In this document: positions 41,227 through 43,986 of the stretch, piece after piece
Numbering within the stretch: the first letter of the stretch is position 1
Layout: every line of letters starts with the position of its first letter
Source of the DNA: Lacimicrobium sp. SS2-24
GTDB taxonomy: Bacteria; Pseudomonadota; Gammaproteobacteria; Enterobacterales; Alteromonadaceae
Assembly (NCBI RefSeq): GCF_002201535.1
Contig: NZ_NIWW01000001.1
Coordinates: forward strand, 372,001-436,000
Reading direction: 5' to 3'
Length of the DNA stretch: 64,000 nt
Notes under the pieces: generated by a model
Databases searched by the model: none
What the model was told of the DNA's origin: nothing
Seen by the model: only the letters and a program-made list of their open reading frames with translations
Position numbers and translations under genes: made by a program

Positions 41227-42336
41227 TTAGCTTTGCTCGCGAGGTTGTAATACCAGCGTGCTGGTGAGCCTTTCTCGACCAAACAAAGCCATTTTAATAA
41301 ACTCTTCTCTGCTCACTGGCACGTCGATAAAATCCAGTTCCGTTTGCCAGGGTTCATGATCCATCTCAGGGTCTGTAACGGAAACACATTGAGAATCGGC
41401 GGCTGAAACCAGCACCCAGTGTGGCGCCTTGTTCCGGGTTAATCGCCAGACACTAATCAGGCTTACCAACACGGCTCCCTGAGACAGATAGTGGTCCAAT
41501 TGTGCCAAGGTTAAAGGTGAATAATGCTGGGTAATGTCCGTGTGCTCGGCTTCACTGAGAAAGTGTTCATGTACCCGTTGCATAACCTCTTTTTTCTGTG
41601 GATCGCGCACCGAATTCAAAAAGGGCACACTGGTCTGGCTGACAAATAAATCCACCTTATAGCCTCGACGCCAGGCACTCAGCGCCAACCCCAGACCACT
41701 GCAACCACCGTGTCCCGACGTCATATAGATTGTCGTGGCTTCACGCCATATCTGAATTTCTTCCTGTGCTGTCATGCAGTAGGCTTTGTCGATTTTGTGC
41801 ATTGCCATCATCAGGCTCGCCGGTCCACACGTGAAATCCAGGGTTTGCTGATAGCGCTTGGTAGGATGCGTATTGCGCGGAGCGGTGCCAAGACTTTTTT
41901 CCATCTGCAATGCGTCGCTGCCATCTTCATAGTATCCCTTCACGACGCCTATTCTGTGGTAACCCAGCTTACGATACAGACCGATAGCAGCCTCATTGTC
42001 AGTCCTGACTTCCAGGCGCATAAACAGGCACAATTGTTCTGCTGCTCGTCGCTGTACATCTTTAAGCAGAGTATTGGCAACACCCTGTCCACGGCAATCA
42101 TCTGCTACGGCGATTGAATAAAGCCTGGCCAGTTGCGTTCCCTTGCGATACAGCACCAGCGCATAGCCAGCAAGCACCTCTCCTTGCATGGCAAGGATAA
42201 GGCTGCAATGCCCTTTGCGGATAAAGTAGCTGAAGCTGCGTCTGGATATCTTATCGGTACTGAAACTGTGTTTTTCTAGCGCCACTAAGGCGGGTATGTC
42301 TGCAGCAACAGCACAGCGTAAATGAAAGCGATTCAA
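41227..42336 (-). CDS. GNAT acetyltransferase fused to a C39-like cysteine peptidase
   Basis: A 369-residue fusion. Residues 1-150 are a RimI-like GNAT domain, with the acetyl-CoA loop CRGQGVA (81-87) and NEAAIGLYRKLGYHRIGV. Residues 155-360 resemble peptidase C39: QQTLDFTCGPASLMMAM (Gln163/164 and Cys170), His306 in KAPHWVLVSAAD and Asp322 in SVTDPEMD form a plausible catalytic set. No transporter domain is present, so it is a cytoplasmic enzyme. It is divergent from the RLAN/ATP-grasp gene, an arrangement that suggests one system for making, acylating and trimming a peptide or amide. Its substrate is unknown. Confidence 0.87.
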   Translation of the reverse strand: MNRFHLRCAVAADIPALVALEKHSFSTDKISRRSFSYFIRKGHCSLILAMQGEVLAGYALVLYRKGTQLARLYSIAVADDCRGQGVANTLLKDVQRRAAEQLCLFMRLEVRTDNEAAIGLYRKLGYHRIGVVKGYYEDGSDALQMEKSLGTAPRNTHPTKRYQQTLDFTCGPASLMMAMHKIDKAYCMTAQEEIQIWREATTIYMTSGHGGCSGLGLALSAWRRGYKVDLFVSQTSVPFLNSVRDPQKKEVMQRVHEHFLSEAEHTDITQHYSPLTLAQLDHYLSQGAVLVSLISVWRLTRNKAPHWVLVSAADSQCVSVTDPEMDHEPWQTELDFIDVPVSREEFIKMALFGRERLTSTLVLQPREQS

Positions 42337-42519
42337 AGAAGGTAGCCTGCGTTAATTAAGCAATGCAGTGTATTGCGTATGTAGAAAAAAACAACATATC
42401 AAAAAAGATTTTTCTAATCGATTTATTCCATTATTAAAATGGATATTTTCCTGTACTTTAGCGCTGATTGATATCATCTACACTGAACAGTCAGATTCAG
42501 TCTTTTTTTAAGGAAAACT
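42337..42519. promoter_or_regulatory. Divergent AT-rich regulatory region with leader hairpin
   Basis: This 183-base AT-rich gap should carry both promoters of the divergent GNAT-C39 and RLAN/ATP-grasp genes. ACTGAA (42482-42487) and TTCAGT (42496-42501) form a weak 6-bp stem followed by C and seven T residues up to 42509, then AAGGA and the start codon at 42520. That arrangement resembles an attenuator placed against the ribosome-binding site. Confidence 0.45.
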
Positions 42520-43986
42520 ATGTCCGGATACTATGTGGTGGTTGACGACCTGGATGACTGGGGCCCCTACTTCCCCAGTCGGGAAGTGATATCGTTCGAG
42601 CAATATCTGGCTAAAACAGATGGGACAAATGAACGTACGGTACGCATTCTCAACCTGTGTCGCAACAAACGTGCACTGGGCCGTGGATATTACTGTTCAT
42701 TATTGGCCGAAGCCCGTGGCCACAAAGTTATTCCAGACATCAGCACCATTAATGACTTGCGTCGCAAGAAGCTCTACAGCCTGCGCTTAGAGGATATTGC
42801 CAAGTCATTGCACAAGCTAAAAGCAGAAGATGAGCATGACACGCTGACAATCAGAGTCTTTCTTGGTGAAACACCGCATAAGGATTGCGCAGATCTGGCC
42901 AAGGCTGTATTTGATCGCTTTCCGGCCCCCATACTGGAAGTGACGCTGAGCAAAAACCGTCATTGGTCTTTAGAAAAAATCCAGCCTCTGTCTTTGCAGG
43001 ATATTGAAAATGAGGCGGAACAGGAATTTTTAGCCAATACCCTTGAGCGATTTAGCAACAGGCTCTGGCGAAAACCGAAAGCACGAAAACATTATCGCTA
43101 TGATGTCGCCATGCTATGTGATGCAGCAGAGGCGATGCCTCCCAGCGATAAAAAGGCGCTGAATAGTTTTGTCAAAGCCGCTGACAAGCTGGGGATTAAC
43201 CTCGAACCCATTGGCAAGAAAGACTATGTTCGACTGGCAGAATACGACGGTCTTTTTATTCGCGAGACCACCTCCATCGATCATCATACCTATCGGTTTG
43301 CTAAAAAGGCAGAAGCCGAAGGAATGGTGGTAATCGATGATCCGACGTCGATATTACGCTGTACCAATAAGGTGTATCTGGCGGATTTGCTGCGCACAAA
43401 TAAAGTGCCGACGCCCAAGACACTGCTGCTGAGTAATACAGACAAACCCAGTTTAGAGCACGCCATTGAGTATTTGGGGCTGCCCATAGTACTGAAAATT
43501 CCCGATGGCGCATTCTCCCGTGGCATGTTCAAAGCCACGAATATGGATGAACTGGTGGATGCAATGAAACAATTAACTCGCACCTCTGCCTTGGTTTTGG
43601 CGCAGGAGTTCCTATATACCGACTATGACTGGCGAATCGGTGTGCTGAATAATAAGCCGTTGTATGCCTGCCGTTACTTTATGGTTAAAGGTCATTGGCA
43701 AATATACCGTCATGATGATGCAACCAATGTTGCCACAGGTGGGTTTGAAACCATGCCCACTTATGAGGTTCCTCCCAAGGTATTGGATGCAGCATTGCGC
43801 GCTTGCAAGCTGATTGGCAATGGTTTTTATGGGGTTGATATCAAACAAACGGCCGAAGGAAAAGTGGCGGTGATTGAAGTTAATGATAATCCCAGCATTG
43901 ACTCTGGAGTTGAAGATAAATTCCTGGGTCAAGCACTGTATCAGGAAGTTATGGCAGAATTCCTGCGCCGGATGGAGTTACAATAA
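42520..43986 (+). CDS. RimK-like ATP-grasp ligase with RLAN N-terminal domain
   Basis: A 488-residue protein. The N-terminal part (1-185; MSGYYVVVDDLDDWGPYFPS, RILNLCRNKRALGRGYYCSLLAEARGHKVIPD) is the RLAN domain found with RimK-like enzymes. The C-terminal 200 residues are an ATP-grasp domain: VKPNTK-like TNKVPTPKTLLL, the ATP-binding LGLPIVLKIPDGAFSRGMFK and the Mg-binding Glu453/Asn455 in VIEVNDNPSID. Such enzymes couple ATP hydrolysis to form an amide or peptide bond. AAGGA precedes the ATG. It faces the GNAT-C39 gene divergently and is followed by trxB 66 bases on; a functional link with trxB is not implied. Confidence 0.88.
   Translation: MSGYYVVVDDLDDWGPYFPSREVISFEQYLAKTDGTNERTVRILNLCRNKRALGRGYYCSLLAEARGHKVIPDISTINDLRRKKLYSLRLEDIAKSLHKLKAEDEHDTLTIRVFLGETPHKDCADLAKAVFDRFPAPILEVTLSKNRHWSLEKIQPLSLQDIENEAEQEFLANTLERFSNRLWRKPKARKHYRYDVAMLCDAAEAMPPSDKKALNSFVKAADKLGINLEPIGKKDYVRLAEYDGLFIRETTSIDHHTYRFAKKAEAEGMVVIDDPTSILRCTNKVYLADLLRTNKVPTPKTLLLSNTDKPSLEHAIEYLGLPIVLKIPDGAFSRGMFKATNMDELVDAMKQLTRTSALVLAQEFLYTDYDWRIGVLNNKPLYACRYFMVKGHWQIYRHDDATNVATGGFETMPTYEVPPKVLDAALRACKLIGNGFYGVDIKQTAEGKVAVIEVNDNPSIDSGVEDKFLGQALYQEVMAEFLRRMELQ

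Follow-up and report, generated by a model that had tools for sequence, protein, structure and literature searches.

What do two facing genes accomplish together when one encodes an acetyltransferase fused to a papain-like domain and the other a predicted amide ligase, and do they belong to one functional unit at all? The question is raised by a locus within the window, that is, the whole stretch of 64,000 nucleotides that we analyzed. On the reverse strand, an ORF with a TTG start (positions 41227-42336) encodes a GNAT-DUF3335 fusion protein of 369 aa, identified by Pfam matches to Acetyltransf_1 and DUF3335 and by an AlphaFold model. On the forward strand, an ORF at 42520-43986 encodes a protein of 488 aa in which an RLAN domain (PF14401) precedes a RimK-like ATP-grasp domain (PF08443), also with an AlphaFold model. 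The divergent starts are separated by an AT-rich intergenic region of 183 bp (42337-42519), whose G+C content is 33% compared with approximately 48% in its surroundings. The original prediction had placed both ORFs, their domains, and this gap correctly, and had read the shared region as a sign of co-regulation; the latter idea was not borne out, as no promoter-like, terminator-like, or Rfam match was found in the 183 bp, and an RNA element there was rejected on the Rfam result. The immediate neighbors are DUF412/YfbV and an S9 peptidase on one side and a thioredoxin-reductase-like protein on the other. No ABC transporter was detected in the GNAT-DUF3335 protein or among the immediate neighbors scanned, in agreement with the earlier claim.

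In the fusion protein, Acetyltransf_1 spans residues 34-126 and DUF3335, described in Pfam as “Peptidase_C39 like” (PF11814), spans residues 162-363 with 268.5 bits against a cut-off of 25; the AlphaFold model, with a mean pLDDT of 90.7, supports two folded domains. The first is a RimI-like GNAT domain (residues 1-150; positions 41887-42336, reverse strand), delimited by TIGR01575, by Foldseek, and by the conserved E109 and Y121. These catalytic Glu and Tyr residues are kept in 149 of 149 and 146 of 149 homologues, respectively, and have the spacing of Glu103 and Tyr115 of RimI. When the whole fusion protein was submitted to Foldseek, the list of matches was filled by GNAT structures, the best being E. 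coli RimI (5isv) and archaeal Ard1 (4pv6), so that the nearest GNATs are N-terminal acetyltransferases, which act on alpha-amino groups. The domain scores 88.9 bits against the RimI model TIGR01575 (cut-off 86.4), yet its orthology with RimI is doubtful because a RimI gene elsewhere in the same genome scores higher (114.6 bits). As the fused GNAT (41887-42336) lies barely above this equivalog cut-off, automatic annotation may misname the protein RimI.

The second domain (residues 162-363; positions 41248-41853, reverse strand), delimited by PF11814 and its catalytic columns, carries Cys170 (41827-41829), His306 (41419-41421), and Asp322 (41371-41373), which together with Gln164 form the DUF3335 catalytic set. 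Gln164, Cys170, and His306 are each present in 91 of 91 sequences and Asp322 in 87 of 91, while E193, W197, R198, T201, G208, G210, and G211 are also invariant among the 91. The score and the conserved papain-like Gln/Cys/His/Asp set therefore place the domain in DUF3335, and the fusion of an acetyltransferase with a C39-like peptidase bearing Cys170, His306, and Asp322 is as first described; of the glutamines proposed with them, Gln164 holds and Gln163 is variable. The nearest remote relatives are C39_2 peptidases (E = 1.6e-12). The bacteriocin-type peptidase C39 (PF03412), which is ABC-linked and cuts double-glycine leaders, was not reported at E values up to 0.1 and was rejected as a candidate, given also the lack of an ABC transporter.

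Butirosin synthesis employs BtrH together with an ATP-grasp enzyme, and phytochelatin synthase performs a transfer with glutathione. DUF3335 repeatedly matches BtrH_N, with E = 0.021 in Pfam and 0.006 against PDB chains, and phytochelatin synthase, with E = 0.08; this suggests that its remote relatives may include acyltransferases of the BtrH type and not only peptidases, which weighs against the leading reading given below. DUF3335 would then be an acyl- or peptidyl-transferase acting on an aminoacyl or peptidyl group that the ATP-grasp enzyme loads, transferring it to an acceptor, with the GNAT capping it. However, these matches are weak and fall below the Pfam cut-offs, and those to C39_2 peptidases are far stronger; we consider a transferase unlikely.

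The facing protein combines RLAN at residues 26-171 (42595-43032, forward strand; 161 bits) with RimK-like ATP-grasp at residues 283-461 (43366-43902, forward strand; 40.5 bits, cut-off 21), and its AlphaFold model, with a mean pLDDT of 82.6, is less certain than that of the fusion protein but still usable. Four RLAN residues (G56, Y58, S60, and R66) are invariant in 153 homologues. In the ATP-grasp domain, K284, K326, D440, and E453 occur in 153 of 153 and N455 in 145 of 153, confirming that the facing gene encodes a RimK-like enzyme with an N-terminal RLAN domain and an intact metal-binding E-x-N (E453-x-N455, positions 43876-43884). The profile score, the catalytic Lys, and the E-x-N assign the protein to the RLAN/PF14401 family with ATP-grasp, whose function is a predicted one; the literature searched offered no substrate or product for an RLAN gene. 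By sequence, its ATP-grasp domain lies closest to RimK and LysX; among the folds most similar to it are those of Ddl, ArgX, LysX, RimK, and the graspetide ligase PsnB, all of which form amides or esters with ATP. The RLAN half had no PDB match by sequence. Membership in RimK itself was rejected, since the protein scores 86.7 bits against the alpha-L-glutamate ligase model TIGR00768 (cut-off 143.4), and a separate RimK gene in the same genome reaches 277 bits.

The eight homologues that lack N455 form a single divergent clade of one genus in the order survey (L046, L048, L050-L054, and L059), in which this residue is replaced by Ile or Val, the HWQ motif is lost, and the divergently transcribed GNAT gene is retained. 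The clade is probably Aeromonas, given a 33% match to an A. caviae record. These ligases may possibly be inactive or repurposed.

Do the two genes belong together? The simplest rival is that they are unrelated neighbors, as their opposite transcription directions might indicate. We surveyed 198 genomes of the order and 399 of the phylum, with one genome per species and mainly one phylum. In the order, RLAN was found in 41 genomes and DUF3335 above cut-off in 31, all 31 of which also carry RLAN; in the phylum, the respective numbers were 72 and 58, with RLAN in 57 of the 58 DUF3335 genomes. Fisher p values for the pairing were 7e-28 in the order and 1e-53 in the phylum; these ignore shared ancestry, and independent support therefore comes from adjacency amid changing flanks and from gene fusion. 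The pair stays adjacent while the flanking genes differ between clades. In two genomes (loci L170 and L177), GNAT and RLAN are joined in a single ORF of 656-667 aa, which adjoins a second GNAT-DUF3335 gene. With p below 1e-27, the adjacency, and the fusion, unrelated neighbors are so improbable that we regard this rival as refuted. The co-occurrence, the adjacency in unrelated surroundings, the two GNAT+RLAN fusions, and the kept catalytic residues support the view that the two genes are one functional unit. Neither outcome that would have undermined the original prediction, random co-occurrence or the loss of catalytic residues in most homologues, was observed; the residues are near-invariant.

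Which of the parts make up the core of this unit? Loci were drawn from the order survey, a named genome collection (closest 80 loci), and the phylum survey, and were scanned with profiles built for this analysis. Among 156 RLAN loci, some from genomes reached twice, a GNAT gene lies within 6 kb in 149, of which 90 have DUF3335 and 59 do not. Counted as 153 distinct loci, 146 have a GNAT gene, 88 of them together with DUF3335 and 58 lacking it, and neither is within reach in the remaining 7. Four of these seven (L079, L087, L104, and L110) are truncated at a contig end or begin near one, and the other three (L083, L088, and L145) look like true exceptions without GNAT. On the RLAN tree (FastTree), changes between “with DUF3335” and “GNAT only” were needed at least 11 times. 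Taken together with the locus counts, this identifies GNAT as the steady partner of RLAN and DUF3335 as a component repeatedly gained or lost. The proposal that the proteins ligate, acylate, and trim was thus right in treating the genes as one unit, but the core is GNAT and RLAN, and trimming is accessory, DUF3335 being missing from about 40% of RLAN loci. One observation runs against this core: on the P. aeruginosa plasmid pZYPA1927 (L196), RLAN is solitary, with GNAT and DUF3335 absent within 6 kb, so GNAT is not strictly required. This solitary RLAN lies near pagP, ggt, and a glutamate/aspartate transporter.

Other enzymes join the pair in some species. A DUF2817 (M14-like) gene accompanies the pair in 18 loci, where it frequently lies between the two genes, and a DUF155 (RMND1-type) gene does so in 6. 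At L166 (G203:C1:240000-252000), GNAT-DUF3335, DUF2817, and a DUF155-like gene stand in a row without RLAN, which suggests that these three also form a unit; L166 is a second locus in a genome that carries GNAT-RLAN elsewhere. The divergent layout of the window is the usual one, occurring in 121 of the 149 loci with both genes, although several clades have co-directional genes, among them most members of the window's own family (L047, L049, L055, L057, and L058). In an Azospirillum replicon, for instance, DUF3335 and RLAN are co-directional and about 50 bp apart. A GNAT-RLAN pair whose RLAN is about 52% identical to that of the window was found in a Pontiellaceae MAG of Kiritimatiellota (L114, contig JAFGVP010000006.1), and represents either lateral transfer or a mis-binned contig.

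Several broader roles were considered and rejected. Anti-phage defense found no matching family in PADLOC-DB; for a phage-borne gene, phages gave only partial ATP-grasp matches at about 28% identity; and for a plasmid-mobile module, 11 plasmid records were found, mostly large Azospirillum replicons. PA1345, which by gene order is presumably an RLAN gene, was set aside, a motif being what marks it as a possible Cpx target.

What, then, is modified? What the three enzymes have in common is a fit to a peptide-like substrate whose amine and carboxylate are both free. The original prediction had suggested looking for a conserved small ORF nearby. Within 3.5 kb of RLAN, none was conserved across the fetched loci, where small ORFs form only genus-level clusters such as an Rmf-like gene in Marinobacter; this speaks against a locally encoded peptide substrate, which we reject as a general feature. 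Our leading reading, which we hold tentatively and at somewhat less than even confidence, is that the pair is a cytosolic amide-ligase/N-acetyltransferase module making an N-acetyl oligopeptide, with optional trimming, recycling, or transfer by DUF3335. The RLAN/ATP-grasp enzyme would activate a carboxylate with ATP and join it to an amino compound, most likely extending a short peptide or aminoacyl substrate with an amino acid at its C-terminal carboxylate. Acetylation by the RimI-like GNAT would take place at the free alpha-amine of this same small molecule and yield the N-acetyl oligopeptide, which the fused Cys-His-Asp enzyme, where present, and in some species the DUF2817 M14-like enzyme, may trim, recycle, or transfer. 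This reading is based on the domains, the conserved catalytic residues, the genomic linkage, and the GNAT-RLAN fusion, from which we infer the reactions and their order, the shared substrate, the cytosolic location, and a product that is small and soluble instead of a modified protein.

A protein target is, on enzymatic grounds, just as compatible, as RimK and LysX, the nearest ATP-grasp sequences, act on protein C termini, and RimI and Ard1 likewise act on protein ends. In that case, one particular protein, encoded at another locus, could receive amino acids at its C terminus from the ATP-grasp enzyme, an N terminus (of the protein or of the tag) would be acetylated by the GNAT, and DUF3335 or DUF2817 would remove the tail, as in the known writer/trimmer pair RimK and RimB (PMC12239564). 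However, the ligase scores too low for the RimK family and has no N-x-x-R-G-G stretch such as RimK and LysX carry, in place of which the RLAN family has H-W-Q-I-Y...S/T-G. The pair, moreover, occurs in no more than about 18-21% of the genomes sampled, and a universal target would thus be modified in some species only. The ordinary targets, the N terminus of S18 for RimI and S6 for RimK, are already served by separate genes of this genome that score better on the RimI and RimK models. Because of these separate genes, the patchy distribution, and the lack of a conserved small ORF, we favor the small acetylated peptide and regard modification of protein ends as rather improbable.

The same patchiness, together with the fold common to RimI-like and antibiotic-acetylating GNATs, might point to detoxification, in which the GNAT and the papain-like enzyme would inactivate an external amino compound or peptide and the ligase would recycle it. 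We judge this very unlikely: the usual pair is a GNAT with an ATP-consuming ligase, the hydrolase-like part is optional, no recurring resistance gene family stands beside the pair in the neighbor clusters (most of which are unannotated), and PADLOC gave no match.

The wider proposition is that GNAT and RLAN/ATP-grasp, with optional DUF3335, DUF2817, and DUF155, constitute a widespread uncharacterized module of proteobacteria for a new class of N-acetylated short peptides (or for a new protein-end modification), which we put forward as a possibility well short of even. An RLAN gene occurs in about one in five sampled genomes of the phylum, and the survey turns a “predicted amidoligase” into a testable pair, whose GNAT and ligase core would be expected to work on one and the same molecule. 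An acetylated peptide, if that is what is made, could be a stress or storage metabolite that is common but has been overlooked.

How does this compare with known systems? Iyer et al. in 2009 reportedly also named the RLAN domain and predicted roles in peptide synthesis. The window protein is a typical member of the RLAN family (PF14401), with a full domain match and the same architecture. According to a passage of PMC10318531, which refers to Iyer et al. 2009, a GNAT domain frequently accompanies DUF3335 in one polypeptide, and such proteins may ligate peptides or acetylate; this is the two-domain architecture of the fusion protein in the window. The novelty first claimed was therefore overstated, and the pair is a typical member of a predicted system whose associations are, at least in part, already published as predictions. 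That passage on DUF3335-GNAT contains no RLAN partner, GNAT-only loci, GNAT-RLAN fusion, or DUF2817 and DUF155 additions. Our analysis adds the quantified linkage, the ranking of GNAT as core and DUF3335 as optional, the GNAT-RLAN fusion, and the DUF2817 and DUF155 associations, although these may already be in Iyer 2009.

Among ligases, LysX and ArgX are close ATP-grasp homologues of the window protein by sequence and fold, but they work with the LysW carrier, whereas the surroundings of the pair contain no conserved small ORF for a carrier protein. RimK, whose poly-glutamylation of ribosomal protein S6 is trimmed by RimB (PMC12239564), offers a similar association of a RimK-like ATP-grasp ligase with a peptidase; the window pair differs in its RLAN domain, the missing N-x-x-R-G-G motif, another peptidase fold, and a near-constant GNAT partner. 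N-acetylglutaminylglutamine amide synthetase (TIGR03103) belongs to another family, and membership in it was rejected at 30.6 bits, from the GNAT part only, against a cut-off of 569. It likewise unites GNAT and ATP-grasp and makes an acetylated dipeptide, a likeness of logic, not of ancestry.
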